From an uncultured Alphaproteobacteria bacterium (GTDB taxonomy: Bacteria; Pseudomonadota; Alphaproteobacteria; RF32; CAG-239), in contig CAMAJR010000009.1 in NCBI GenBank assembly GCA_945835885.1, positions 1 to 33,712 of the forward strand: 33,712 nt of DNA, given 5' to 3'. The position numbers and the translations under genes are program-made. The notes beneath the pieces were generated by a model. It was not told the DNA's origin. It ran no database searches and saw nothing but the letters and a program-made list of their open reading frames with translations. Below, one piece after another: positions 1 to 20,151 of the stretch (position 1 is the stretch's first letter; the number at the start of each line of letters is the position of its first letter).

Positions 1-3000
1 TGCTCTTGTCGTCTGTTGTCAAGCGCGTCAAATCACCCTCAACACCTTTGGCGCGCTGTTCTTCTATGTCAACATCGGCTGCTCTGTTTAACGTTTCTTG
101 ATACAAACCTTCATCCAAAGCCGTCAAGTTCTCGGCTACCGTCGTTCTGCGTTCCGCTACGCCGACACTTGGAACAGTCAGACCCGAAATGTAGTGCGTT
201 GAGCCGCCGGAAACCGTGCCGTTATTGTTCTTTGAACTTTGGTCTACTTCGCCGATAGAACGGTCTAACGCCATCAAGTTATCGGCTACCGTGTTACCTG
301 CCCCAAACGCTGAGGCCGTTCTTTGAACCAAGTTACCGTTATTGTCGCCAAGTGAACCCAACTTCGTGGTAATTTCACCGCTGATTGCACCGTCTACCGC
401 GTTAATGGCTGCAACTAAACTTCTGGCACCTGTGGCATTGCCTGTCAAGCTATTAAGGTTACCCTCAACACCTGTCGCACGAGTTGCTTCTGCAGTTAAA
501 GCAGCATCTACCGCGTTAATGGCTGCAACTAAGTTTCCAGCATTTTCAGCAACACCCTCTAAGTCTTGAAGGTCACCTTCAACGACTTTCGCACGGGCGA
601 TTTCAACGTCGATTGCCCCTTGCAAGCCGCTTTCTATACCTTTCGCACGAGTTACTTCTGCATCAATCGCATCATCCAATGCTTTCAAGTTTGTGCCGAC
701 CGTGTTGGCAATCTTAGCATATTTGCCATCTCCCGTCATTGTAATATTCGTTTGAATATCATCAATATCTTTTTCGGCATCAATCAACGCGCTATCCAAT
801 GCTTTCAGGTTGCTGGAAACGGTTGACGGAGTTGCCGCTGTCGGGGCATACGCCTTCAAGTGTGTGCCTTGCGGTAAATCAGACAATACACCGATGGTAT
901 CATTAACCGTCTTGGCATTCGTGCCTAAGAAGTTAATCGCTTCTTTAATATTTCTGTCATTCTGACCGCCGTCAGCCAAGATGTTGGTGTTAACATTACC
1001 GGTTGCCGTGAAGTCTGCGACTTCGGCATTTGCCTTAATATCACGATCAACGCTGGCTTTTGTTGCAACCTTTGTGCTGTTGGCGTTACCGCTTACGGTA
1101 TCAACTGTTGTCAAAGCGTTGTTATCGCTGAGCTTCAAGCTCGGTGTGGTAATGCCGTCACCTTTGATAAAGGTTGATTTTTTAGCTTCGCCGGTCTGAC
1201 CATTGTCAACAACAACACCATTGGCATTGCTAAATGTCTTGGCTCCCGTAATGGTTTCTGCACCGGCAATATGAACAACACTGCCGTCAACATTGCCAAT
1301 TCCTGTATTCAAGGTGTTCAAAGCAGCTTCAAGCGTTGTAACCGTATCTTTGTTCATCAAACCGTCTGTGCCGACTTTATAATAACCGTCTTTTGCCTTG
1401 CTATATACGGTCTTAGCCAAAGCACGCGTCGTTGCAAATGTGTTGCTTGCACCGCCCGGCGCATCAGCCGTGCCGAGGTCAATTGTGTCAGACGAAGTGC
1501 CGGTCATTGTAATAACTTCTCCACCCAACTTAATGCCGTTTGCAAAAGTCTTTATACCGGTAATTGTGTCGTTTGTGCTGTTGGTTACAACATCATTAAC
1601 ATATACGTCTTTTCCGTTAACATTGATAGCACCTTTGTTTGTTCCTGTGGCAATCAAAATATCAACCGCACCGCTCTCATCTTCTGTCAAAGCAACGTGG
1701 TTAACTTTAACGGCTTTAACCGCATCGGTAGCGGCCGAATTTAATTCGTTGATAGCACCGACCAAACTGCCTTTTTCGGTTGTGTTCAAAGCACTCATTG
1801 TGCCGATGTTGTTTTGGATGGTCTTTGTTCCTGTTCCTAAGTAGTTAACTGCCTTAGAAATGCTGTTGACAGCCGTTGTTTCCGCTCCAGCCAAAACGTT
1901 GGTGTCGTATGTGCCGGTCGCAGCAAAGTCTGCATCTTTGGCTTGTGCTTTAATATCACGAGCAACACTGGCTTTGGTGGCAACGATTGCACTGTTGGTG
2001 TTACCGCTTACGGTATCAACACCGGTTACTTCCGAACCGCTCAAGGTCAAACTCGGGGTTGTAATGGTGCCATTGTTTTGAATTGTCAAAGCAGAAGCAT
2101 TGATGCCTGCATTGGCTGTCAGCAAACCGGTCATTGTATCGCCAGCTTTATGAACCGCACTGCTGTCGGCATTCTTCAAAGCAACATTCAAATCATTCAA
2201 AGCCGTGCCGAGTGTAATCGGGGCAACGCTCGGAGCAATTTGACCGTCATTACCCGTGAACTTGAATGATGCATCTTTTGCGTTGTTATAAACCGTATCA
2301 GCCAAGGCCTTGGTCGTTACAACCGTGTTGACGTCGCCGTTGACTTCATCACCGTTCAACAAAGCAATCTTTTGTGTTGCAACATTATTCAATACCGGTG
2401 CACTGTCAGAAGTGCCGAGTTTAATACCGCTATTGAATCTGTCAACACCGGTAATGGTTTGACCACCGTCGGTTACCATCGCATTCTTAATCGCAACTTC
2501 TGCACCGCCGATGGTAATCTTGCCGCTGTTGTCACTTGTGACGGCAACTGCTATATTGTTACCGCTCAACGCAGTCGCATCATTAAATTTAATGCTTTGA
2601 ACCGCACTGCCTGCCGTGCCTTTGATTTCGGCAATTGCACCGGTCAAAGTTGTCGCGGTTGTGCCCATATTTGTATCACCAATCTTCGCGTTGATTGTTG
2701 CAATACCTGTCTTATTGGTAGAGGCCTGAACACCCAATTCGTTAAGAGCACCTTTAATCGTGGTTGCGTTTTCGTTGTTCTTAAGAATATTGGTGTCAGC
2801 CGTTCCTGTTGCCGTAAAGTCGGCATTTTGAGCTTGTGTTTTAATATTAGCAGCAACGCTGGCTTTGGTCGCAACGACTGTCTTGTCTGCGGCTGTTGTG
2901 CCGTCAGAATCAACACTTGTCAAGTCAGAACCGTTCAAAGTCAGAGTCGGGGTAACAACGCCGGCACTAGCCGTAATTGCGCTTGAAAATGTCTTAGCCC

Positions 3001-6000
3001 CCGTAATGGTTTCTGTACCGGCAATATGAACAACACTGTCATCAACACCCTTCAACTCGGCATTCAAACTATTCAACGCCGTACCGATTGTCGTATCGCC
3101 TGCCGCAACTTTGCCGCCGGCTGCGAGTGTAACATCGCCGTCTTTGGCTTGTGCTTTAATATCACGATCAACACTGGCTTTGGTGGCAACGATTTGGCTG
3201 TTGGCTTTTGTCGTATCGTTTGTTCCAACATAGTCAACCTTTGTTAAGAGGTATGACGGAGATTCGCCTGTGCCTGTGCCGAGTTTTAAACCGTTTGTAA
3301 ACGATTTGATGCCGCTGATAACTTGCGGTGCGGCAGATGTTCCGCCATCGGTCGTAACTACATTATGAACTGCGATTTCTGTCGGTGTTGCCGTGCTGTT
3401 TCCGTCCCAAACTTTAATTGTGCCGCTGGTATCGCCTTCGGCAATCTTAAGACTTACGGCGCCATCCGATTCGACTAAAGCCGTATCATTCAGTTTAACT
3501 GCACGAACTGCATCACCGGACTTGTTATAAGCGTCTTTCAAAACGTCAACGACTGTTTTGCCGGTTGTGCCTAAAGCAACATTCAAATCAGCTTTTGTTG
3601 CTGCACCGAGCATCGTGTTAACTGATTGTGCGTTAGTTCCTAACGTATTGATTGCACCGGCAATTGTGCCGTTGTAGCCATACAACAGGTTGTCGCTTGA
3701 TGTGCCCGTCGGTGTGAACATAGCCGTTTGTGCATTGTTATAAATTGTGCCGGCCATTGATTTTGTGGTTACAAGCGTATTGCTGTCGCCGTTGATATCA
3801 CCGCCGGATTTCTTCAATGCCAAGGACTCGTCTGTGGCTTTGGTTATGGTCAAATCACTCTCGCCCGTGCCGAATTTAATACCGGCGCCGGCAACTAATT
3901 TGCCGCTCATTGTATCGCCTGCTTTATGAACCGCACTGTCATCAACACTCTTTAACGCAGTATTCAAAGCGTTTAAGCCGCCGGCAACCGTCACCGGATT
4001 TGCCGTAACTTTACCGCCCGCGTCAAATGTAAAGTCAGCATCTTTTGCTTTAGCTTTAACATCACGCTCTACACTGGCTTTTGTGGCAACGATTTTGCTC
4101 TTTGCCACTTCGGAAGCTACTGTATCCGCATTTTCCAGAACGGCAGATGAACCGAGATGAATGCCGTTTGCAAAAGTCTTTATACCGGTAATTGTGTCGT
4201 CTGTGCTGTTGGTTACCACATCATTAACCGATACTGACACACCGTTAACCTTGAATGCACCTTTGACATCGCCTTCATCAAATTGTAGCGTCGGCGTGTT
4301 CTTGGTAATTGCCGTGCCTGCCGTACCGCCTGATTTAACCGCAATTGTTTGAACTGCGCTGTCTGCCAAAGCACCTTGTGCAGCCGTTGCAAACTCGGCA
4401 ACGTTATGTGTTACGATATCTCCGTAAGTATTAAGTTTATCGTTAATTTGGTCTGCTTGTGTGCCTAAAGTATTAACCGCTTTGGCAATTGTGCTTGCAT
4501 CAACAGACGCATATTTCAAAACATTGTCATCAGCCGTTCCGGTTGCCGTAAAGGTAGCATTTTGTGCTTGGTCTTTAATATTCTTTGCAACGCTGGCTTT
4601 GGTCGCAACAATCTGGTTATCCGTGTTTGAACTGACGCCGTCGGTATCCGCGCTGGTCAAAGTCCGAACATCATCACCCGTGCCGAGTTTCAAACCGGCT
4701 TTAAATGTCTTAACACCGGTAATATCTTCCGCACCGGCTTTGTGAACGACCAATCCGTCGTTGGTGCTGATGCTGTTTGCCAATGTTTTTAATTCTTTAC
4801 CGATTGTGCCGTTATCATAATTGGTCGAGCTTGCATAGTCGGCGCTTGCCGCATTTGCTTTAACATCTCTTTCAACGCTGGCTTGTGTTGCAACCATCTT
4901 GTTCTTTGCCTGAATATTCAAGTCTGTGCTGTCAATTGTCACAGCGCTTGTCAGTTCTTTACCGGCTAAGGTCAAACTCGGTGTTGAAACACCGGCGCTG
5001 GCCTTCAGGGTTGTTGTATTAACACCGCCGTTTGCGGCAATCGCATTTGCAAATGTGTTGTAGCCGCTGAAAATTTGCGGAGTTGTTTCCGTGCCACCGT
5101 CTGTCGTCACAACATTCTTAATTTTGATTTCGGTCGGAGTCGCAGATGCTGCGTTACCATCCCAAATTTTGAATGCACCGCTGGTGTCGCCTTCGGCAAT
5201 TCTGAGGTCTGTCGCGCCGTTGGTTTCGGTCAAAGCAACATTATTCACTTTTACCGTCTTAACCGAATCAATCGCTTTAGCGTTGACTTCGGCAATCGCA
5301 CCGGTCAAAGTCGTTGCGGTTGTGCCCATATTTCCTGTGCCGATGGTATCTTTAATGCCGTCGGTTTGCGTGCCTAAATAGTTAATCGCCTTTCCGATGG
5401 TGTTCACGCTGGCCGCGTCTGCATCACGCAAAACATTGGTGCCGACTTCACCGCTCGGTGTGAACGAAGCGGTCTGTGCATTGCTATAAACCGTATCAGC
5501 CAAGGCCTTGGTCGTCACAACCGTGTTAGCGTCACCATTAACTTCGTCACCGTTCAACAAGGCAATTTTTTGAGTTGCCGCACCGATCAAAGTCGGCGTT
5601 CCTGCGTCTGTGCCGAGTTTCAAACCGGCTGTAAATGTCTTAACACCGGTAATATCTTCCGCACCGGCTTTGTGAACGGCCAATCCGTCGTTGGTGCTGA
5701 TGTTTTCTGCCAATGTTTTTAATTCTTTACCGATTGTGCCGTCAGCATAATTGGTTGAACTTGCATAATTGGCACTTGCCGCATTTGCTTTAATATCACG
5801 GTCAACACTGGCTTTAGTGGCAACGACCTTGCTGTTGGTTATTGTTGTATCATTTGTGCCGTCGTAATCAACACTTGTCAATTCGTGGTTATCGGCAAAC
5901 TTCAAGCTGTCGGCCGTCAAACCGCTCGTAACAGCCAAACCGCCGTTTGCCGTCAATTTCTTTGTAAATGTTTTGGCACCGGTAATCGAATCGTCTGTGC

Positions 6001-9000
6001 TGTTGGTCACAACATCATTCAATGTAATTGTTTGATTACCGAGTGTTAATTTGCCTGAAGCATTACTTGAGAACGCAATATCAACATTGCCGTCTGTTTC
6101 TGTCAGCTTTGTTGTGCTACCGCCGACGGTAATGCTTTGAACAGCGCCTTCTGCCGTATCTTTGGTGGCTTGGAGAACTTGAACCAAAGACTTGTTTTCT
6201 GTGCCTAATGCCGTATTTAAATCTGCTTTTGTGGTGGCACCAATCATATCATCAATTACTTTGGTTTGGTTGCCTAAGCTGTTAATCGCACCGGCAATCG
6301 TGCCGCTACTCAAATAATTGTTGGCACCGGTCGCCGTAAAGTCGGCATTTTGCGCTTGTGTCTTAATATTAGAAGCAACACTGGCCTTGGTTGCCACAAC
6401 TTTTTGGTCGGCCAAAACCGTTCCTTCTTGGTCAATACTGGTCACTTCATTACCGGACAATGTCAATGTCGGAGTTGTAACGTTTGTTGCCGTCAAACCG
6501 GTTGTGGTGATACCGCCGTTTGCAGTCATGGCACCGCTGAACGTTTTAGCGCCGACAATCGTTTCATCGCCGGTTTTGTGAACAACATTCGAATCGTTGG
6601 TGCTGATGGCGCTTGCCAATGTTTGCAATTCTTTACCGATGGTATCGGTGCCGTATGTGCCGGTGGACAAGTAGCTACCGTTTGCCGAATTATCATAAAT
6701 GGTCTTGGCTACGGTCTTGGTGGTTGCCAAAGCATTTGACGAACCGCCGTTGCCGCTGCTCAAATCGATTGCCGTTGTGCCGGCATCGATAGATTCAGCT
6801 GTCGGATATGCCGTTGTTGAGCCGCCGATCTTAAAGCCGTTCGAGAACGATTTTACGCCGGTAATTGTTTCGGCCTTCGAGCCGGTTGTGTGAACAACAT
6901 CATTGCTCAAAGAGCTGTTTATGGCGTCTAATTCGGATTTAATTGTTGTTGTTGTCGAGCCCTTTGTGTATGCGGCATTTTGTGCATTATTATATAATGT
7001 CGATACCAAAGATTTTGTGGTTGCCAATGTGGTTGCCGAACCGCCGTTGCCGTTTGTGCCCAAAGATGTCTGGCTTGCACCGGTATCAATAAGGTTTACC
7101 GAATTGCCGTTAAGTGTAAAGTTACCGTTGTTACCTACGGTCAAACCGCCATTGAACGTATTAAGTTTGCTATACGTTTTAGCACCGCTGATTGCTTGAT
7201 CACCGTCGGTTGTTACAACATTGTGAACGGCAACATCAGTATTATTTACCTTAATTGTGCCGGAAGCAGTGCCTTCTTCAATTAAAATATTTACGGCATT
7301 ATCTTGCGATGCTAATGTGCTGCCGTTGACTTTAACCGTTGTTAATGCCGCATTTTTCACGTTATTAATTGCAGTAACAACATCCGGCGCGCTATCCGGT
7401 AAAGCGGCGGTATCACCGATTGCCGTATCCAAATCATTTATGGCACTCTCATTATCCAAGGCTTTTTTGCCTACTGCATCAAGAGCTGATTTAATTGTTG
7501 TTGAACCGCCATACAAACCGGTAGCATTGCTTGCCGGCGCATATTTTGAATTTTGTGCATATTCATCAACTGTTTTCGTCAAAGCACTAACGGTTGCCAA
7601 TGTATTTGCTTTATCAGCGCTTGTGTTCTTTGCAATAGCAGCATCTTGTGAAATATCGGTAACCAACAATCCGGTTGCACCGATTTTTAAACTGTTTGTC
7701 GTAATGCCGTTTGTAGCGGTTACGGCGCCGGAGAAAGTGTTGGCGCCGCTAAATGTATTGGCACCGGTTTGTGTGGCAACACCGTTCACAGCCACATCTT
7801 GTCCACCCACGGCGATTGTGCCGGCCGTTGCGCCGGTTGCAACTTCTATCGTAACGTTTTTACTTGTATCCGGTGTTAATGATGTTGTTGTCGAACCGAC
7901 TTTGAGTTTAACACCTTGAATAGCACTTCCTGCCGCTGTTTCCGCTGCTTTTAAGGCGCTACCGATGGTGCCGTTGGCATAAGTTGCGGAACTTGCGTAA
8001 TCACCGCTTGCCGCACTTGATTTAATCGCCGTGCCGACAGTTTTGGTAGAAGCCAAAGCTGATTCCGAACCGCCGCCGGCCGTGATTGCCGTGGTGCCGT
8101 TATCAGAACTCGTAATCGTTGTGCCTGTGCTACCGAATTTAACACCGCTGAATGTGTTGGTTCCGCTAAAGGTGTTGTTAGCGCTTAATTTTGAAACACC
8201 ATAGACCGTAACCGGCAAATCATTTACTTTAAATGTGCCTTCGTCTGTTCCCGTTGAAAAACTCAAAGCTGTTCCATTTGCGTTAGACAATGTCTTTGTG
8301 CTACTGCCGGCATTAACCGTAATCGATTGCAAAGCAGAGTTAGCTGTGCCTCTGACTTCATTGATTGCGCCTTTCAAGGTTTGATCGGTTGTTTGCAATA
8401 CTGCTGTGCCGATTGTGCCGTTGATTGTAGCAATACCCTGTTGATTGGTGTATGCTTGTTTGCCCAAAACATTGATAGCTGCACCAATTGTGCTGCTACC
8501 GGTCAGCACGCTGTCTGTTGCACTGCCGGTTGATGTAAATGTCGCCGATTGAGCTTTATCTGCAACAGTTGTTGCCAACGACTTTGTGGTCGCCAATGTT
8601 GACGTATCACCTTCCGTGGCCCCATATACCGTTGCACCTGAAGTGCCGGTTACCGCTTGAGAACCGCCTAATGTCAAACTGTTTGCAGTGACACCGTTTG
8701 TAAAGGCGGTTGCACGGCTGATGGTTTGCGTGCCGGTTCCCGTAGTTGTCACAACATCTTTAACCGCAACATTTGTGCCGTTGACAGAAATTGCACCTGC
8801 CTGATTGGAACTGCTGGCGATTGTTAAAGTAACCATATTACCGGCTTCTTTGGTTAAAGCAGCCGGTGTTGCACCGTTAACACCCAATTTTAAACCGGTC
8901 AAAGCATTTGTGGTCAGAGTATTTAAGTTTGTGTTTAATGTATTTAACGCGCCGCCGATGGTTGTTGATGTGTCACCTAATGTATATACCGCATCTTTGG

Positions 9001-9595
9001 CGTTATTATAAACTGTTTTAGCAACCGCGCTGGTTGTCGCAATTGCGTTGGCAGAACCGGCTGTTCCACCGGCCACTACTATAGCATCTGCAACAGAACT
9101 GGTTAACGCCGGACCGCTTTCACCGAGTGCGATACCGCCCTTAAATCTGTCCAATGCCTTAATGGTTTGATTACCTTCCGTTGTCAACACGTCCTTCAAT
9201 ATAATATCTTGACCGCCTATGGTTATCACCCCCGCAGAAGAACTTGTAACCGCCAAATTGGTAATACCATTTGAAGAACTGACACTATTACCATTGATTT
9301 GGAAACCGGTCAAAGCATTAATATTAACCGAGCCATTCGTTCGCACCAAAGAGCTACCATTAAGTTTGACATCTTTTATTACATCTCCTAAATCGACTGT
9401 TGTTCCCTCTGGCGCAACAACCGCCCCATTCATCTTAATGTTTTCTACAGCTGCCTCAGCATCCGATGCCGTTATAGCGGCAACAACCGGCGCACCGAGC
9501 GCGAACAACCCCACATTAATCAGCCAGCATTTCTTCAACACGCTTCGATATTGACGTGTTAATAGACCAATTGCGGTTTTAGTATATTTCATCAT
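1..9595 (-). CDS. Giant repetitive surface fibre protein with tail-fibre-like repeats (3' end outside window)
   Basis: A minus-strand frame is open from ATG at 9595 to the left edge, about 3198 codons with no stop found on reading; the ORF track omits it because it is incomplete. AAGGGA lies about 8 nt before the ATG. The N-terminus is a long signal peptide: about 25 basic residues (MMKYTKTAIGLLTRQYRS...), a hydrophobic core (INVGLFALGAPVVAA) and a cleavage-like SDAEA. The body repeats short modules: VVHKAGDTMTG or ETITGAKTF, then TTPSLTL, then VVATKASVDRDIKA or VTTKALADTVYNNA, then ADFTATG and TIGKALNxLG. HxAGxETITGxKTF resembles phage tail-fibre repeats (Phage_fiber_2 type). The last ~200 residues in the window change to helical, coiled-coil-like units such as EATRATGVEGNL. 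A very large exported adhesin or fibre is the likely role. The C-terminal anchor, which would show whether this is a trimeric autotransporter, is not visible. Confidence 0.88.
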   Translation of the reverse strand, partial: MMKYTKTAIGLLTRQYRSVLKKCWLINVGLFALGAPVVAAITASDAEAAVENIKMNGAVVAPEGTTVDLGDVIKDVKLNGSSLVRTNGSVNINALTGFQINGNSVSSSNGITNLAVTSSSAGVITIGGQDIILKDVLTTEGNQTIKALDRFKGGIALGESGPALTSSVADAIVVAGGTAGSANAIATTSAVAKTVYNNAKDAVYTLGDTSTTIGGALNTLNTNLNTLTTNALTGLKLGVNGATPAALTKEAGNMVTLTIASSSNQAGAISVNGTNVAVKDVVTTTGTGTQTISRATAFTNGVTANSLTLGGSQAVTGTSGATVYGATEGDTSTLATTKSLATTVADKAQSATFTSTGSATDSVLTGSSTIGAAINVLGKQAYTNQQGIATINGTIGTAVLQTTDQTLKGAINEVRGTANSALQSITVNAGSSTKTLSNANGTALSFSTGTDEGTFKVNDLPVTVYGVSKLSANNTFSGTNTFSGVKFGSTGTTITSSDNGTTAITAGGGSESALASTKTVGTAIKSSAASGDYASSATYANGTIGSALKAAETAAGSAIQGVKLKVGSTTTSLTPDTSKNVTIEVATGATAGTIAVGGQDVAVNGVATQTGANTFSGANTFSGAVTATNGITTNSLKIGATGLLVTDISQDAAIAKNTSADKANTLATVSALTKTVDEYAQNSKYAPASNATGLYGGSTTIKSALDAVGKKALDNESAINDLDTAIGDTAALPDSAPDVVTAINNVKNAALTTVKVNGSTLASQDNAVNILIEEGTASGTIKVNNTDVAVHNVVTTDGDQAISGAKTYSKLNTFNGGLTVGNNGNFTLNGNSVNLIDTGASQTSLGTNGNGGSATTLATTKSLVSTLYNNAQNAAYTKGSTTTTIKSELDAINSSLSNDVVHTTGSKAETITGVKSFSNGFKIGGSTTAYPTAESIDAGTTAIDLSSGNGGSSNALATTKTVAKTIYDNSANGSYLSTGTYGTDTIGKELQTLASAISTNDSNVVHKTGDETIVGAKTFSGAMTANGGITTTGLTATNVTTPTLTLSGNEVTSIDQEGTVLADQKVVATKASVASNIKTQAQNADFTATGANNYLSSGTIAGAINSLGNQTKVIDDMIGATTKADLNTALGTENKSLVQVLQATKDTAEGAVQSITVGGSTTKLTETDGNVDIAFSSNASGKLTLGNQTITLNDVVTNSTDDSITGAKTFTKKLTANGGLAVTSGLTADSLKFADNHELTSVDYDGTNDTTITNSKVVATKASVDRDIKANAASANYASSTNYADGTIGKELKTLAENISTNDGLAVHKAGAEDITGVKTFTAGLKLGTDAGTPTLIGAATQKIALLNGDEVNGDANTVVTTKALADTVYSNAQTASFTPSGEVGTNVLRDADAASVNTIGKAINYLGTQTDGIKDTIGTGNMGTTATTLTGAIAEVNAKAIDSVKTVKVNNVALTETNGATDLRIAEGDTSGAFKIWDGNAASATPTEIKIKNVVTTDGGTETTPQIFSGYNTFANAIAANGGVNTTTLKASAGVSTPSLTLAGKELTSAVTIDSTDLNIQAKNKMVATQASVERDVKANAASADYASSTNYDNGTIGKELKTLANSISTNDGLVVHKAGAEDITGVKTFKAGLKLGTGDDVRTLTSADTDGVSSNTDNQIVATKASVAKNIKDQAQNATFTATGTADDNVLKYASVDASTIAKAVNTLGTQADQINDKLNTYGDIVTHNVAEFATAAQGALADSAVQTIAVKSGGTAGTAITKNTPTLQFDEGDVKGAFKVNGVSVSVNDVVTNSTDDTITGIKTFANGIHLGSSAVLENADTVASEVAKSKIVATKASVERDVKAKAKDADFTFDAGGKVTANPVTVAGGLNALNTALKSVDDSAVHKAGDTMSGKLVAGAGIKFGTGESDLTITKATDESLALKKSGGDINGDSNTLVTTKSMAGTIYNNAQTAMFTPTGTSSDNLLYGYNGTIAGAINTLGTNAQSVNTMLGAATKADLNVALGTTGKTVVDVLKDAYNKSGDAVRAVKLNDTALVESDGAVSLKIAEGDTSGTIKVWDGNSTATPTEIAVHNVVTTDGGTSAAPQVISGIKSFTNGLKLGTGTGESPSYLLTKVDYVGTNDTTKANSQIVATKASVDRDIKAQAKDGDVTLAAGGKVAAGDTTIGTALNSLNAELKGVDDSVVHIAGTETITGAKTFSSAITASAGVVTPTLTLNGSDLTSVDSDGTTAADKTVVATKASVAANIKTQAQNADFTATGTADTNILKNNENATTIKGALNELGVQASTNKTGIATINAKIGDTNMGTTATTLTGAIAEIKGTAGSAVQSIKFNDATALSGNNIAVAVTSDNSGKITIGGAEVAIKNAMVTDGGQTITGVDRFNSGIKLGTSDSAPVLNNVATQKIALLNGDEVNGDVNTVVTTKALADTVYNNAKDASFKFTGNDGQIAPSVAPITLGTALNDLNVALKNADSSAVHKAGDTMTGLLTANAGINASALTIQNNGTITTPSLTLSGSEVTGVDTVSGNTNSAIVATKASVARDIKAQAKDADFAATGTYDTNVLAGAETTAVNSISKAVNYLGTGTKTIQNNIGTMSALNTTEKGSLVGAINELNSAATDAVKAVKVNHVALTEDESGAVDILIATGTNKGAINVNGKDVYVNDVVTNSTNDTITGIKTFANGIKLGGEVITMTGTSSDTIDLGTADAPGGASNTFATTRALAKTVYSKAKDGYYKVGTDGLMNKDTVTTLEAALNTLNTGIGNVDGSVVHIAGAETITGAKTFSNANGVVVDNGQTGEAKKSTFIKGDGITTPSLKLSDNNALTTVDTVSGNANSTKVATKASVDRDIKANAEVADFTATGNVNTNILADGGQNDRNIKEAINFLGTNAKTVNDTIGVLSDLPQGTHLKAYAPTAATPSTVSSNLKALDSALIDAEKDIDDIQTNITMTGDGKYAKIANTVGTNLKALDDAIDAEVTRAKGIESGLQGAIDVEIARAKVVEGDLQDLEGVAENAGNLVAAINAVDAALTAEATRATGVEGNLNSLTGNATGARSLVAAINAVDGAISGEITTKLGSLGDNNGNLVQRTASAFGAGNTVADNLMALDRSIGEVDQSSKNNNGTVSGGSTHYISGLTVPSVGVAERRTTVAENLTALDEGLYQETLNRAADVDIEEQRAKGVEGDLTRLTTDDKS
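4681..4860 (-). repeat. Near-identical internal repeat, copy A (giant fibre gene)
   Basis: This 180-nt stretch recurs at 5611-5790 with only scattered substitutions, at an offset of exactly 930 nt (310 codons), so the frame is kept. It encodes LKLGTGDD..., the VHKAGAEDITGVKTF knob, ISTNDGL, TIGKELKTLA and ANAASADYASS. The identity is clearly higher than between most modules of the protein, which suggests recent duplication or gene conversion. Confidence 0.85.
5611..5790 (-). repeat. Near-identical internal repeat, copy B (giant fibre gene)
   Basis: Second copy of the 180-nt unit at 4681-4860. Both copies carry the same sub-blocks in the same order (accggtaatatcttccgcac, then ccaatccgtcgttggtgctg, then ttctttaccgattgtgccg). 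A 930-nt in-frame offset could allow recombination to add or remove 310 residues of the fibre. Confidence 0.85.
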
Positions 9596-9631
9596 GGTAT
9601 GATTCCCTTCATAATAACCTGTTGATAACTT

Positions 9632-10193: not shown

Positions 10194-10221
10194 TAAAAAG
10201 GGCGGATTATGCCACCGCCCT
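10194..10221 (-). terminator. Intrinsic terminator of the 1411-aa pilin-like gene
   Basis: Read on the minus strand, AGGGCGG and CCGCCCT form a 7-bp GC-rich stem around a 9-nt loop, followed by TTTTT. It lies 47 nt beyond the stop codon of the 1411-aa ORF, so the giant fibre gene further on should be a separate transcript. Confidence 0.8.
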
Positions 10222-10267: not shown

Positions 10268-13200
10268 CTACCACAGTTCGTCGTATTTTAAAGCAGGGTC
10301 ATTCAACACCTTACGTTCGTCCGCGTGCGGTGCCGAATAATCTGTGTTCCAGTCATCTATCGTATATTGGATATTGCCGGCATTTTCAGTAGATCCATCG
10401 TCATCCCAATTAACCGTACCTGTTACTGAGTCATTATCTGTTTCTGAGACAACTTTGTTATCGATGAAGCAATAAGTGGTTGAATAACTGGTCAACGTAT
10501 TCTTCAACACCGGGAACAGATTCCAATAACCGTCGATTTCCGCATCGCCGTCATCATTATAGTCATCTTTTTTGGTGACGCCTAACACGTTCGCAACATT
10601 ACCGTATAACTCTACCGGATATATAAAGCCCGTCAGAACAGCCCAACCGTTAACATAGCCTGTATTCTCGTGTGTTGCTAATTCCTTAAATGCCGTTTTC
10701 AGCCATGTGCTCTTTTGAAACGAAATCGGACGTTGGTTCGGGTCGTTGGTAACCAAGAAATATGCGCCTTCATCCGTCTCACTCACACTCTGATTTTTTG
10801 CCAGTTTCGGTTCCGGTTTGCCGGAGGAGTTATATTTAGTGACATATTTATCGGCGACAACATCCGCCCTCAAAGCCAATCCCTTATTATCTTTGATGGC
10901 ATTTCTGTCTGCACCGGTGGACCGTGTGTTATAACCAAAGTGGTCAATATATAAGGTTTGGTCGCGCAAATCAACGTGCGAATTTTCGTGAAATACCGCT
11001 TCATCCGACTTTAACGTATCACGGTCAACACCGACACGCGCGACACCACCGATGAGGAACAATCTGTTTTCTTCATCACCGTCATCTTCCGGTCCTTTGC
11101 TATTTTGATAAAATTGCACAAGATCCGGTTCCCATTTACCGCCGTCATTTTCGGCACTTCCTCTGGTTGTTTGAAGTTGTGCCGGAACCGAACCTTTTTC
11201 TATCGAGCCCTGTTCCAAATCTCTGATTCTGCCGAATACCGGTTGATTTTCCAAAAATTCGGCCTTGCTGGTATAGTTAGTTTCCACAACACCGTCATCA
11301 CTTTGCACGTAAGCGCCGGGATTAGTAGCATCGACTTTCAGACCGAGCATCGCCGCCTGCGACACATCCAGACCAGCGCGATCGGCACCAGCCGGTTCCA
11401 AAGTTCCGACCGTTGCCATTTCAAAGCTGCCCGGAACAACCGTAATCGCTCTACCGTATCCCGGAGGACACGACGGTGCCGGAATAGACCCTAAATACGG
11501 CGATGCGTAAGGTGAAGTACCTTCACTTTCCGGTGTGCGATCTCCTTCATCACCGCTTAATTCTTTATAATCGGTTCCTTCACTATAGCTGTTGGTTGAG
11601 TAGTAAATTCTCTTGGTAATAAAGTCCGGCAAAATATCACTCAAACGCGCGCCAAAACGAGACGTCAGCTTAATATCCTTCATCACGGAAGTGTATGCCG
11701 GATTAACCATATATGTGTCGTATTTGTTGCTTACGCCACTTTGATAGTCGCTATCATTCAACGTATTGTTATACATAATACGCTCGCCTTTGATATTAAC
11801 ATTGTTTGCCACAAAACGTGACGCACGAACAGTGCCGGAAGAAGTATCGGCAGAAGCATTACCCTTTGGTTCTTCCCCACCAGTATAATCACTACGATTC
11901 GGCGCAATATCAATTAAGCCCTTTCGAATATATACCGTTCCTTGCGCCATGGTTCTTTTCCCGCCAGTTTTATTGTCCAATTCAAATGAATCAAATGAAT
12001 TATCGCTCCCACTCGTGTTTTCCCAACCTTTTGGGGCACCAACATACGCCTGACTACTGCCGTTTTCTAAGTCGATATACACAACACGTTTGGAATTATT
12101 GCCCGCCGTATCACTGTCTGACACAATGTTCACACCGGCATTGTATTGGTCGTCTATACCTTTATCCTCGCCTGAAGATTTTACCCCCATTGCCAAGAAC
12201 TTAACTGCTTTGTTTTCGTTGTTGCGAGATACTGCATCACTCGTAAACACTGTATCACCGTGGCCGGCTATTTTGAACTTACCGTTTGTATCGGTGTTAC
12301 TTGTTTTGTATGTTGTCGGGTCGTTATAATTACCACCGACCAAACCAGATTCTTCTGTATCATTACCGCGAATGGTGAAAACAGGATTTGCAGCGCTATC
12401 CGTTACTTGTAAGGTGGTGCCAATCATATCCACGTAACCGCCCTCTTCATACTTCACGCGGTACGGGCTATTTCCTCCCCCTTCTCCTGTTTCATCATCA
12501 GCCGATGTCGGACTGCCGATTGTGATTTCGTTCTTTTCTAAACGCTCACGCACGCCTTTTGTGCCGGTTGTCAGTTCAATCGAATGGCCTGTCGCCGCCT
12601 CACCATCAGTCCCCTGTGCAATTATCTTAACACCTGAATCGTTCATAATAAACTGCGTTTCATGCTTTGTCGGGTTTTCATTGGTATTCAAATCTTGGGC
12701 TGTCGAACCGAAGCGCATCGCAATCACATCATCATTGATTTCAACCTGCTTTAATGCCTTGGCGGGTGTCGTATTCCCCTCGCCGTCATCTGTTGCTTCC
12801 GCACCGTCGCGACTATGGATATGGACACCGTCTTCATCCACTTCCATCCATTTCAATCTGTCGTTGATGTTCGGTGAACCAACGGCAAGTTCCGCCACAC
12901 GGATTTTTTGCGTATCCAACTGCCCGGCTGCCAAAACACCGTTCACTGCCATATTGGAATCGACCACCACCGGGAACTGCGGCACCGCCGGTTGCCCAGT
13001 GTCATAACTTATTTTCGGAGCGTTTGATGCATCCTCAGTGGTATAGCCGTTATCGGTATCCGCACCCGAACCGTCGATTGTTTTATCGCCCGCTTTGGCA
13101 AGCAAGAGTTTGGTGCCGGTCGCTCCTCTGTCACCGACCCTAACCTCCTCCAAATCACTGTCCGACGCAATAATCAGCGGTGCATCTCCGCTGTCGCCTT

Positions 13201-14503
13201 TGCTGACAGGCATAATCTCAACTCGATTTCTACCCTCCGGCGCTTCCATTCCTTCCTGAACTTCTTCTTCGCTTTCGAGTTTTTCGGTCACAGCGGTAAT
13301 CAAATATTTGGTTGCTGTTCCCGTTGTTTCATCCTCATCAATTCCGCCGAGTTGAATTTTCGGACCGTGATAGGTCAGCTCATTTTCATCTGTGAACAAA
13401 CGCTTTCCGGCTGCTTCAAGCGAACCGGCAATATATGCGTTAATGCCATATTTACCTCTAGTGTCATCGGTTGCGTCGGCAATATACAAACCATAGCTTT
13501 CCAACCCCCTTTTCACGTCAGCATCGCCTTCTTCGCCTTCTGCGCCTTCACCGTTGCTTGTTTGATATTTTTCGTTAACATAAAGACTGTCACGGTCGCT
13601 GGCTTTTTCCCAACCTTTATCATTATCGGCATCAGAGCCGTCAGCACCGACAATCAACTGATTGATGTTACGAATACTGAAGTAACCGTCGGTTGTTTTA
13701 TCATCATAATCGTGACCTTTGTTTGCCAGTTCACCCATATAAATATCTGTGCGCATTGTGTTACGCCATTTTTCGATTTCACCGTTTTCTGCCGTGCGTT
13801 GCAGATATTTGGTCATGTCGCCACCCATACCTTCCGCACCGTTCACAACGTCTATTGATGATGTCACGATTGAATAATTGCCCGGTGTGCTGCCGGCAAT
13901 CGAACTCAATTCATCGCTGGTCAGATTCCAAGTGCCGCCGACGCCGCGTGCTTCACCTTCACGCACATAGCCGCCGTTTGAACCGATAAGCGAAGCAATT
14001 CGCACCGTACGCTCTTGTCCGATGGTTTCTTCTTCATCGCCGCCTCTTGCCGGAAACACCATAAATGCCGATAAATTATTGCCGGACCGCGCGACGGCAA
14101 ATGACGGTTGACCATAATTATATAAGTTGTCTTTGGCGCTGTAGCCGTAAGGAAGATACTTTTCAAGTTCATCCATTGCTTTAACCGTATCACTTCCGGC
14201 TTCATCGCTTCCCGGAACCGTTAATTCCAAATCATCCAATGAAACAATCGTCGGGTTATCACCCGCCGGTTCCGGAATTTTTTCCATCAACTCGGAATAA
14301 TTGGCCGCCAGCAAAGACTCGACACCATTCATATAAGTGCGAATAGCCGAGGCGGTATTGATGTCCTCAACTTCCATTGTGCGCTCCGCTGACTTTTTAT
14401 ACATTGTCGGCGTCACAACGGCTATCAAGCCGAGCATAGCCAAGGCCTCAATCATCAAGCCGCCTTGTTCTATTACGGATTTTTTGTTGTTAAACTTTTT
14501 CAT
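10268..14503 (-). CDS. Giant prepilin-like surface protein (1411 aa)
   Basis: AGGAG sits 7 nt before the ATG. Residues 1-15 form a short basic leader ending in GG. The next ~18 residues are hydrophobic (LMIEALAMLGLIAVVTP) with a Glu at position 19, which is +5 if cleavage is G14|G15; this is the arrangement of type IV prepilins and pseudopilins. The helix continues amphipathically (MYKKSAERTMEVEDINTASAI). After ~80 residues the protein becomes a very long, acidic, Gly/Asp/Thr-rich, beta-predicted body. It contains segments such as MAVNGVLAAGQLDTQKIRVAEL that resemble PilV-like pilus-tip or tail-fibre proteins. The few cysteines are near the C-terminus (SCPPGYG, TTYCFID). Ordinary pilins have 120-200 residues, so this is exceptionally long. 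It probably works as a membrane-inserted or pilus-tip adhesin. No pilus assembly ATPase or prepilin peptidase is in the window. Confidence 0.85.
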   Translation of the reverse strand: MKKFNNKKSVIEQGGLMIEALAMLGLIAVVTPTMYKKSAERTMEVEDINTASAIRTYMNGVESLLAANYSELMEKIPEPAGDNPTIVSLDDLELTVPGSDEAGSDTVKAMDELEKYLPYGYSAKDNLYNYGQPSFAVARSGNNLSAFMVFPARGGDEEETIGQERTVRIASLIGSNGGYVREGEARGVGGTWNLTSDELSSIAGSTPGNYSIVTSSIDVVNGAEGMGGDMTKYLQRTAENGEIEKWRNTMRTDIYMGELANKGHDYDDKTTDGYFSIRNINQLIVGADGSDADNDKGWEKASDRDSLYVNEKYQTSNGEGAEGEEGDADVKRGLESYGLYIADATDDTRGKYGINAYIAGSLEAAGKRLFTDENELTYHGPKIQLGGIDEDETTGTATKYLITAVTEKLESEEEVQEGMEAPEGRNRVEIMPVSKGDSGDAPLIIASDSDLEEVRVGDRGATGTKLLLAKAGDKTIDGSGADTDNGYTTEDASNAPKISYDTGQPAVPQFPVVVDSNMAVNGVLAAGQLDTQKIRVAELAVGSPNINDRLKWMEVDEDGVHIHSRDGAEATDDGEGNTTPAKALKQVEINDDVIAMRFGSTAQDLNTNENPTKHETQFIMNDSGVKIIAQGTDGEAATGHSIELTTGTKGVRERLEKNEITIGSPTSADDETGEGGGNSPYRVKYEEGGYVDMIGTTLQVTDSAANPVFTIRGNDTEESGLVGGNYNDPTTYKTSNTDTNGKFKIAGHGDTVFTSDAVSRNNENKAVKFLAMGVKSSGEDKGIDDQYNAGVNIVSDSDTAGNNSKRVVYIDLENGSSQAYVGAPKGWENTSGSDNSFDSFELDNKTGGKRTMAQGTVYIRKGLIDIAPNRSDYTGGEEPKGNASADTSSGTVRASRFVANNVNIKGERIMYNNTLNDSDYQSGVSNKYDTYMVNPAYTSVMKDIKLTSRFGARLSDILPDFITKRIYYSTNSYSEGTDYKELSGDEGDRTPESEGTSPYASPYLGSIPAPSCPPGYGRAITVVPGSFEMATVGTLEPAGADRAGLDVSQAAMLGLKVDATNPGAYVQSDDGVVETNYTSKAEFLENQPVFGRIRDLEQGSIEKGSVPAQLQTTRGSAENDGGKWEPDLVQFYQNSKGPEDDGDEENRLFLIGGVARVGVDRDTLKSDEAVFHENSHVDLRDQTLYIDHFGYNTRSTGADRNAIKDNKGLALRADVVADKYVTKYNSSGKPEPKLAKNQSVSETDEGAYFLVTNDPNQRPISFQKSTWLKTAFKELATHENTGYVNGWAVLTGFIYPVELYGNVANVLGVTKKDDYNDDGDAEIDGYWNLFPVLKNTLTSYSTTYCFIDNKVVSETDNDSVTGTVNWDDDGSTENAGNIQYTIDDWNTDYSAPHADERKVLNDPALKYDELW

Positions 14504-14550: not shown

Positions 14551-15864
14551 TTAATCTTGCGGTTGATTAATCGGTTTATCTTTATGTTTATTTTGCCAGT
14601 CATTGTCTTTGGTCTTGCCTTCCGCAAACCCGACCATAAGATTATAACAATGGTATGCCGTATCAGTCGCCGGAATACGCTCATAAGCAAACATACACGG
14701 CGTTGAACTGCAATTTGCCTTAAATTCGTCTGTCTGCCAAAAAACAGAATTGTCAGGCAATTTTTCATATTCAATCACATAATCACTTTGAGTTTGGCGC
14801 TGATTTTCAAAAATCGGATTACCATATTCATCAAGCACCGCATTTCCGTCCTCATCTCGTTTTTGAACTCTTTCATAAGTTTTTATACCGACGGTCACAC
14901 CCGTTCGATCGCCTTTCGCACGTCTGGAATCCGCTTTTTGACGCACATTGCCGTGGCGCGCATTCATACCGTATAATTTACATTTCGGCTCACTTGAATT
15001 TCCGTCGCAAATTGTCCATCCGAAAACCGTATCGCTGTTAGAATCTTTTGCCAACATATTTACCAAAATCGGCAACGGAGAACGGTCTTTTTTAGAAAGC
15101 CATCTATCCGGAATTTGTGCAAAAGTCACTAAATAGCGCGTGCGTGAAGAAAGTCTTTTTTCGGTAGTGTGCGAACCATCATAGTCAGCATCTCGTTTCA
15201 TATCGCAACGCATAAAATTCTGCGCCGTTGCACGTTCGGCAACTTCATCCAAGCAATAAACAAAATGATTCACGCCCGTCGGAAAAACGGTGCGACCGCG
15301 TTGTGTGTCATATCCGTGCGGAACGTGTTTCATAAAGTGGTTATAGTTTTCAACCACATTATCTTCAAGATTATTACTGGTGTTCACAGTCCCCGGCGTT
15401 GTTGTCGATTCCGTTCCCGATTCGATTTCTGAGTCCGTCACAGGTTCAGAGGTCGGCGTGCCGTTACCGGCCGAACCCGCCGTAACCGGTCCCCAAAAAG
15501 TTTTCATTGTATCCGTGCCGACGGTAACGGTGCACGATTTTGCACATTTGTCTACGTTGTTCGCATAAAACATCGGATTAAAGCAGCTGACATTAACCGG
15601 ACCGCTTGCACTGGCACGCGTCACTTCATTGCCACACATACCGCAATTTTGAGATTCTTCTGCGGCATCCCAACATCCGGAATTGCGTTGATACATAATT
15701 TCGCATTCCATTGTTTTAAGCATAGCTTTATGCTCAATTTTAAAGCGATTGGACACGGTCGCCGCACGCACTTCGTTAAGTGCATGGTCTTTATCCGCAC
15801 GCGGCGATACATTATAAAAACTCAACGCTACCATAATCGTAGCCAATAATATCCATATATACAT
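14551..15864 (-). CDS. Membrane-anchored cysteine-rich protein, pilin-operon partner (437 aa)
   Basis: AAGGA lies 8 nt before the ATG. Residues 1-19 form one transmembrane helix (MYIWILLATIMVALSFYNV), followed by a charged helix (NEVRAATVSNRFKIEHKAM). This is the shape of a minor pilin or pseudopilin without a cleavable leader, although no prepilin peptidase site is visible. A cysteine cluster follows at about residues 53-110 (MECEI, SGCWDAA, NCGMCGN, NVSCF, DKCAKSC), suggesting disulphides in the periplasm. A Thr/Ser/Gly/Pro-rich linker comes at about 130-170, and further cysteines occur later. It lies 47 nt upstream of the 1411-aa prepilin-like gene on the same strand with no terminator between, so co-transcription is likely. 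I do not recognise a named family. A structural or anchoring partner of the giant pilin-like protein is inference. Confidence 0.75.
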   Translation of the reverse strand: MYIWILLATIMVALSFYNVSPRADKDHALNEVRAATVSNRFKIEHKAMLKTMECEIMYQRNSGCWDAAEESQNCGMCGNEVTRASASGPVNVSCFNPMFYANNVDKCAKSCTVTVGTDTMKTFWGPVTAGSAGNGTPTSEPVTDSEIESGTESTTTPGTVNTSNNLEDNVVENYNHFMKHVPHGYDTQRGRTVFPTGVNHFVYCLDEVAERATAQNFMRCDMKRDADYDGSHTTEKRLSSRTRYLVTFAQIPDRWLSKKDRSPLPILVNMLAKDSNSDTVFGWTICDGNSSEPKCKLYGMNARHGNVRQKADSRRAKGDRTGVTVGIKTYERVQKRDEDGNAVLDEYGNPIFENQRQTQSDYVIEYEKLPDNSVFWQTDEFKANCSSTPCMFAYERIPATDTAYHCYNLMVGFAEGKTKDNDWQNKHKDKPINQPQD

Positions 15865-19215: not shown

Positions 19216-20151
19216 ATGGCTTATCCTGAATATTATGACATACTCGGCGTTAAAACCGATGCTTCGCCGGACGAAATTAAAAAATCTTATATTCATCTGG
19301 TAAAAAAATATCATCCTGACACACATCAAGGTGATATAGAGTCTGAAAACAAGCTCAAACGCATCAATGAGGCCTATGATGTTCTGAAAGACCTTGCCAA
19401 ACGTGCCGAATATGACTACTTTGGTGTTAACGGACAAGAAGAAATACCGCCCGAAGAAGAACAGACGGCCGGATATCCGCAACCCTATACACCGCCCCAA
19501 ACATCGCACACATATTCCGCCTCCGTCAAGCCGTCAAAAATCCGTGTCGGATTGCGTTTTGTTATAGGAAAATTGTTTTGGCTCTCATTTTTGGCATTGT
19601 ATATTATTTTTTTGCACACGCATCGTGATACGAAAGACCCGAACAATGTGTTTAAGATGTTTTTAAACAGTTCACAAGCGATTGTCCAACAAACCAAACA
19701 ATTTGCGCAATCAGGAGGAGCATCTTTATTTAACTCACCGACTTTGAAACAGTTTATTATCAATACCCTGTTTAACGCCGTGCGCCAAAACAATATCCGT
19801 GCTGTTAGTTTTTGGCTCTCCGTTTTGCCGTCGCGTTCGGTATTTTTTTATGTTAATGCAACAGACAAACAAAATTACGGACGCACTCTTTTAATGGAAG
19901 CGCAAAGTCCTGAAATTATCGCCGTATTGTTAGATGCCGGTGCTATTGCCGACCGCGTCGACACTACGGGAGAAACAGCGTTGACATTAGCAATCAGACG
20001 CCACGATGCGACCGGCGTTGAATTGATGTTACAAGCCGACCCGAGCATTGCGGATTATGTATTACCTAACGGGATGACTCCGATGGATTTGGCACTCAAA
20101 AACAATGATACCATCATTATGACGCTTTTACAACAACGCCTCCGCCAATAA
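19216..20151 (+). CDS. J-domain, transmembrane and ankyrin-repeat fusion protein
   Basis: The 311-aa protein has three parts. Residues 1-70 are a J domain (YYDILGVKTDASPDEIKKSY, the HPD motif at 33-35, and NEAYDVLKDLAKRAEYD). A Pro-rich linker leads to a transmembrane helix at about 112-133 (VGLRFVIGKLFWLSFLALYI). From about 215 to 311 are ankyrin-like repeats (GRTLLMEAQSPEIIAVLLDAGA, GETALTLAIRRHD, GMTPMDLALKNND). J domains stimulate the ATPase of Hsp70 (DnaK), so this protein probably brings DnaK to the membrane. The zinc and substrate-binding domains of true DnaJ are absent. The ribosome site is weak (GAGA). A TTGACA at 19129 has only a poor -10. The 3' end meets lolA, 18 nt away. Confidence 0.88.
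   Translation: MAYPEYYDILGVKTDASPDEIKKSYIHLVKKYHPDTHQGDIESENKLKRINEAYDVLKDLAKRAEYDYFGVNGQEEIPPEEEQTAGYPQPYTPPQTSHTYSASVKPSKIRVGLRFVIGKLFWLSFLALYIIFLHTHRDTKDPNNVFKMFLNSSQAIVQQTKQFAQSGGASLFNSPTLKQFIINTLFNAVRQNNIRAVSFWLSVLPSRSVFFYVNATDKQNYGRTLLMEAQSPEIIAVLLDAGAIADRVDTTGETALTLAIRRHDATGVELMLQADPSIADYVLPNGMTPMDLALKNNDTIIMTLLQQRLRQ

Follow-up and report, generated by a model that had tools for sequence, protein, structure and literature searches.

A stop-free frame at the end of a rumen alphaproteobacterial contig is probably the front part of a giant trimeric autotransporter adhesin of a kind paired in its genus with a Skp-like gene

What kind of protein begins in a reading frame of more than nine kilobases that runs off the end of a contig, and where does that protein end? 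The window analysed here, a stretch of 33,712 nucleotides, is the complete contig C9 of the genome of an uncultured alphaproteobacterium (1.51 Mb in 91 contigs, 96% complete), and such a frame fills its left end (Table 1). The original prediction took it to be a single minus-strand frame of at least 3198 residues with a good start behind AAGGGA. Exact translation agrees with this: a stop codon was looked for from the ATG to the contig end, and there is none in the 3198 codons. Stop triplets make up 5.0% of the triplets in this stretch, which predicts about 160 stops (probability of none, ~1e-71), and the five alternative frames hold 64 to 283 stops each. The gene is missing from lists of closed open reading frames because the contig end cuts it.

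The gene preceding the adhesin ends in a terminator-like hairpin at 10216, and the window neighbours of the adhesin include pyruvate kinase, a DnaJ-ankyrin protein, LolA, ArgRS, RlmN, polyA polymerase and a ROK protein. In the DnaJ-ankyrin protein (19216-20151, plus strand) a DnaJ domain is joined to ankyrin repeats in one chain. Two further minus-strand genes were noted. One (10268-14503) encodes a 1411-residue protein without Pfam or NCBIfam match, whose homologues measure ~1145-1460 residues across the genus, with weak ones beyond; the orthologue in the sheep-rumen relative G005 has a type IV prepilin-like start, ERGGLMIEALAMLGLIAVVTP, although a prepilin as large as 1411 residues would be odd. 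The other (14551-15864), directly upstream of the prepilin-like gene, encodes a protein of 437 residues that has many cysteines and a single hydrophobic stretch at its N-terminus and matches no family.

A bacterial export signal had been proposed at the N-terminus of the frame, and we judged this by alignment with complete autotransporters together with inspection. A charged n-region, a hydrophobic h-region and an AEA-A site are recognizable by eye, and they belong to an extended leader, MMKYTKTAIGLLTRQYRSVLKKCWLINVGLFALGA, that is kept through the genus. In ten sequences G10, L11, L12, QYRSVL, K22, C23, I26, N27, G29 and FALG are invariant. Against the nearest orthologue, in G005, residues 1-45 of the leader are identical at 42 of 45 positions and the passenger that follows at 137 of 328. 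Of the 16 leader codons that differ, 13 do so synonymously, so selection acts on the leader at the level of the protein. Scanning 85,462 genomes with the leader alignment recovered 54 loci, all from uncultured proteobacteria and mostly from Alphaproteobacteria of the rumen or gut. The complete C-termini that follow the leader or lie next to it were scanned in 25 cases, and 18 of them are of the classical autotransporter type (PF03797) and six of the trimeric type (PF03895); the N-terminal export signal expected of a type Vc protein is thus present as a leader common to complete autotransporters. In the same genome it recurs on contigs C46, C54 and C36, the last of these carrying a classical autotransporter with PF03797 (locus L134, 3856-7908, minus strand) that also has Chlamydia PMP-type repeats.

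The extended signal peptide region, ESPR, has been described for type V proteins and is common to different type V classes (PMC8151025). The leader of the window gene resembles it in being an N-terminal extension ahead of an ordinary signal that is spread over several type V classes, but differs in its conserved sequence (QYRSVLKKC) and in its alphaproteobacterial clade; searches of three leaders with PF13018, run up to E = 10, found no match. The most fitting name is ESPR-like leader, for a sequence that forms a kind by itself.

The C-terminal anchor was predicted to lie outside the window, with YadA among the candidates, and a YadA anchor did emerge on another contig, C30, whose connection to the window we infer. 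Three YadA anchors lie above the Pfam cut-off in this genome, on C30, C54 and C49. The frame on C30, which is 2094 residues long and cut by the contig edge, has one of them at its end (PF03895, 50.8 bits; cut-off 22.7), and this anchor also matches the YadA structure 2lme (5.8e-6). The tail on C49 is likewise open at its contig start, and the paralogue on C54, complete with 1710 residues, itself carries a YadA-type anchor. Trimeric-type heads are thus found on C9, C46 and C54 and tails on C30, C49 and C54, only C54 being complete. By elimination, the heads on C9 and C46 are to be matched with the tails on C30 and C49, and a shared repeat favours joining C9 to C30. This repeat of about 350 bases, located in the coiled-coil-like segment at the end of the window, recurs on C30 with 89% DNA identity and, at the protein level, 80% identity over 89 residues; when the initial 2.4 kb of C30 served as a DNA query against the whole genome, the sole match elsewhere was C9. 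Beyond the coiled-coil-like and beta-rich repeats seen both at the end of C9 and on C30, the latter closes with the anchor. As no exact overlap between contig ends was found and no contig spans the junction, a gap of unspecified length has to be placed between the two.

The missing overlap would equally suit an arrangement in which the window gene is a type Vc adhesin ending on C49 or on a missing contig, while C30 belongs to the head on C46, and at 96% completeness a tail could indeed be missing from the genome. Against this, the 89% repeat is confined to C9 and C30, and C46 shares units (68%) with the small contig C83 instead, so that we regard this arrangement as unlikely. Very probably the C-terminus of the window gene lies on C30, in which case the two frames together would encode at least 5292 residues, plus the gap. 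Such a size is credible because the relative G001 (MAG Tb.RUG.243) holds a complete gene of the same layout, from leader to YadA anchor, as a single frame of 5203 residues. A YadA anchor, as expected of a type Vc protein, is therefore present outright in G001 and on C54, and in the window gene by way of the C9-C30 join. Synteny was searched in relatives as well, and the ABC-transporter genes downstream on C30 and the 1411-residue upstream gene never occurred together on one contig. Contig C28 of G005 was considered as an orthologue of the C30 tail and rejected, being an orthologue of C49 instead (80%, its partner 84%). More tentatively, C46, C83 and C49 may make up a second adhesin: the giant head on C46 (L036, 63-14402) has 4780 residues and runs off its contig, and with L010 on C83 and L038 on C49 it could exceed 6800 residues.

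The passenger consists of units of ~104 residues, grouped into repeats of ~300 residues and aligning at roughly 21-64% identity, in which a short helix, VHKxGxETIxGxKTF, a beta stretch and VATKASVxRDIK alternate. Both modules predicted from the letters, HxAGxETITGxKTF and VVATKASVxRDIKA, recur in the frame, the second in the form VATKASVxRDIKA. A search for DNA tandem repeats returned one trivial array only; the protein repeats have therefore diverged at the DNA level.

Table 1. Features of the adhesin gene and its 5' flank in the window
Feature	Position	Strand	Basis or remark
N-terminal part of trimeric autotransporter adhesin gene, 3198 codons, no stop	2..9595	-	probably continues on contig C30
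Promoter-like site TTGAAA-17-TATAAT, 11/12, ~130 bases 5' of start codon	9728..9756	-	consensus match only
Ribosome-binding-site-like AAGGGA, eight bases before ATG 9595	9604..9609	-	by position
Extended leader, residues 1-48, MMKYTKTAIGLLTRQYRSVLKKCWLINVGLFALGAPVVAAITASDAEA; core QYRSVLKKC conserved across clade	9452..9595	-	alignment; not Pfam ESPR
Helix + VHTTGSKAETITG...KSF stem-neck unit, ~residue 901	6806..6940	-	repeat alignment
Stem-neck unit VHKTGDETIVGAKTF, residue 1005	6494..6628	-	Pfam + profile
Stem-neck unit VHKAGAEDITGVKTF, residue 1307	5588..5722	-	profile
Stem-neck unit VHKAGAEDITGVKTF, residue 1617	4658..4792	-	profile
Stem-neck unit, VHKAGDTMSGKL variant, residue 1889	3842..3976	-	sequence
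Stem-neck unit VHIAGTETITGAKTF, residue 2189	2942..3076	-	profile
Stem-neck unit, VHKAGDTMTGLL variant, residue 2481	2066..2200	-	sequence
Stem-neck unit VHIAGAETITGAKTF, residue 2774	1187..1321	-	profile
Coiled-coil-like stalk segment, residues ~2930-3198	2..808	-	coiled coil by inspection; bases 19-366 recur on C30

These modules had been likened to phage tail fibres, a comparison that holds for one unit. The sole confident Pfam match in the frame is BppL_N (PF18338), found in four stretches and reaching 52.9 bits against a curated cut-off of 25.8; the Phage_fiber_2 family (PF03406), which had been suggested, is not among the Pfam matches of the frame at E up to 1. A profile of the helix and the VHK motif recovered the BPP/RBP structures of phage TP901-1 (E 1.8e-8 to 3.9e-8) and, apart from these, one weaker phage structural protein (5e7t/5e7f). 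In TP901-1, BppL is a homotrimer in which the helix forms a three-helix stem and the motif that follows an interlaced beta-prism neck (PMC3893620). The adhesin and the phage proteins (PF18338 region; PDB 2f0c, 3d8m and 3u6x) align in the same order, a helix and then VHKTGDETIAGKKTF; the stem-neck, however, occurs once in the phage protein and several times in tandem in the adhesin, in which no BppL head domain was recognized. An AlphaFold2 monomer of a 306-residue unit was discarded (mean pLDDT 45), so that the trimeric beta-prisms proposed for the adhesin rest on sequence similarity, which fits well with a homotrimeric adhesin. It also suggests a trimeric module shared between phages and bacterial adhesins, in whichever direction; the likeness may reflect transfer either way or the convergent origin of a short motif.

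The clear similarity of this one unit to the TP901-1 receptor-binding protein is what would speak for the whole frame being a tail fibre, whether of a prophage, of a phage or domesticated, with a start that resembles a signal by chance. We consider this highly improbable: no phage gene was recognized elsewhere in the window, a tblastn search of 50,697 phage records with the 306-residue unit found nothing, and leader and YadA anchor occur together on homologues. A PHROGs search gave weak and uninformative matches only, and an NCBIfam search gave none.

The features assembled above instead point to the trimeric autotransporter adhesins typified by YadA, BadA, AtaA and SadA, with which the window gene, its C9 and C30 parts taken together, shares a leader, a long repetitive passenger, a coiled-coil-like stalk and a C-terminal YadA anchor. 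It differs from them in its repeated stem-neck units resembling a phage receptor-binding protein, in its great length if joined, and in lacking the canonical YadA head repeats (PF05658), which are absent from both C9 and C30 but present in a G005 paralogue. Such head repeats are not obligatory for every type Vc member. We hold with high confidence that the C9 frame encodes the N-terminal portion of a very large type Vc adhesin of a rumen alphaproteobacterium, made and exported along the lines set out below. What lies at the left end of the window would be the front of this sticky surface fibre of an uncultured rumen bacterium, amounting to ~60% of it or less, and a homotrimeric fibre on the cell surface is predicted. 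A tail-fibre-like repeat serving as a chromosomal surface fibre of this size was originally thought unusual; in the trimeric autotransporters, a secretion class already known, a large repetitive fibre is what one would expect, and the supposed anomaly disappears.

Neither the clade-specific character of the leader nor the gene described next can be recognized from the window by itself. Directly downstream of the adhesins on C30, C54 and C49, and of those on G001:C23 and G011:C2, there are genes of 176-224 codons that are homologous to one another. Across 26 genomes of the genus, all 29 YadA-anchored genes found have this partner immediately after them on the same strand (26 strong matches and three weak), with 17-158 bases between the adhesin stop and the partner start. 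Its layout is an N-terminal tail, a hydrophobic helix (28/28) and a Skp-like domain. The best Pfam OmpH match has an E of 1.8e-10; against the PF03938 cut-off of 32.4, the C54 partner scores 41.6 bits and that of G001 32.6, and the partners on C30, C49 and in G011 fall below. Skp and OmpH-like proteins were the sole, weak matches in a PDB profile search (0.025-0.043), and for a model with mean pLDDT 73 the ten best Foldseek matches, among them 1sg2 and 1u2m, were all Skp, OmpH-like or the type 9 translocon protein SkpA. The partner on C49 (L038, 2449-3159) has a SHOCT domain in its N-terminal tail, ahead of the membrane helix.

In this genus the pairing is specific to trimeric adhesins. The partner is found beside none of 19 classical autotransporters that have the same leader and a visible flank, whereas it is present at the three trimeric ones of that set. 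In other genera of the class, a Skp-like gene lies downstream of one of 15 anchors, a few of these loci being shortened by contig ends; such a gene (L197, 1625-2098) was seen 3' of the adhesin on G227:C12, from another alphaproteobacterial family. Distances among anchors and among partners are correlated (r 0.63 over 28 pairs, and 0.44 without three divergent pairs). When partners were re-dealt within genomes, mean r fell to 0.17 and 0.20, with the observed values at the top of the shuffles, and r 0.63 was never reached in 9999 such swaps.

This body of evidence, namely the 29/29 pairing across paralogous loci, the absence beside classical autotransporters, the partner-specific covariation within genomes and the presence elsewhere in the genome of a separate small secreted Skp-like gene, argues against two alternatives, that the partner serves the periplasm as a general chaperone and that it is an envelope gene hitch-hiking with adhesin genes. 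Experiments with Skp proper point both ways, for it increased YadA assembly in mitochondria, yet yeast two-hybrid assays gave no contact between YadA and Skp, and YadA biogenesis in Yersinia does not need skp (all reviewed in PMC8151025). A terminator-like hairpin, expected in 0.14 pairs from shuffles, also stands in the gap between adhesin and partner in 22 of 28 pairs (e.g. L009, 6285-6444), so that co-transcription is not assured. It suggests that the partner may be produced at a reduced level or have a promoter to itself. The general-chaperone or hitch-hiking explanation therefore keeps some standing, though we think it rather unlikely; the partner is probably a dedicated export chaperone.

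Compared with Skp/OmpH (1sg2, 1u2m), the partner has the same fold and C-terminal motif; Skp, however, is soluble and general, whereas the partner carries a membrane helix behind its N-terminal tail and adjoins each trimeric adhesin. The linked helpers described for this class in a review are SadB and TpgA only (PMC8151025), and SadB, a lipoprotein that forms trimers in the inner membrane and helps the adhesin SadA, offers a functional precedent for a tethered helper (PMC3953254). Both SadB and the partner are inner-membrane, adhesin-linked and likely helpers in export and trimerization. In contrast to SadB, a lipoprotein with a MATH-like C-terminal domain encoded upstream of its adhesin, the partner combines a Skp/OmpH fold with a charged tail and the transmembrane helix that follows this tail, and its gene lies downstream, so that it lacks the marks of a SadB-type helper. 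We found no description in the open-access literature of a YadA-OmpH/Skp gene pair or of BppL_N in such adhesins; the class of large surface fibres itself is already known.

Type Vc proteins follow a route of Sec export, BAM-dependent insertion of a trimeric anchor barrel and export of the passenger through that barrel. Along this route, the adhesin chain would cross the inner membrane by Sec, with the extended leader delaying its release there. The tethered Skp-like partner, probably a trimer like Skp, could hold three unfolded passenger chains near the translocon, align them and aid their trimerization without misfolding. BAM would then insert the 12-stranded anchor barrel, four strands per chain, and the passenger would be threaded outward into a fibre some hundreds of nanometres long. 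In the rumen, this fibre may attach the bacterium to plant material, to ciliates or to other cells. Undefined alphaproteobacteria have been found enriched with ciliates (PMC6217230), and rumen attachment, for example to ciliates, is a guess.

How trimeric autotransporter chains are kept unfolded and find their two partners in the periplasm is an unsettled question, and the evidence on a role of Skp in their assembly is mixed. With even weight for and against, we propose that this rumen and gut alphaproteobacterial clade has evolved a third dedicated export factor for trimeric autotransporters: a Skp-fold protein tethered in the inner membrane, private to each adhesin and coupled to the clade leader, that would capture and trimerize chains of more than 5000 residues at the translocon. 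The size of the adhesin and its phage-like units are of moderate interest, while the strict pairing of such adhesins with a membrane-anchored Skp relative could open new ground. This adhesin-specific pairing in the genus offers a direct way to test whether Skp-type chaperones have a specific part in the assembly of trimers.
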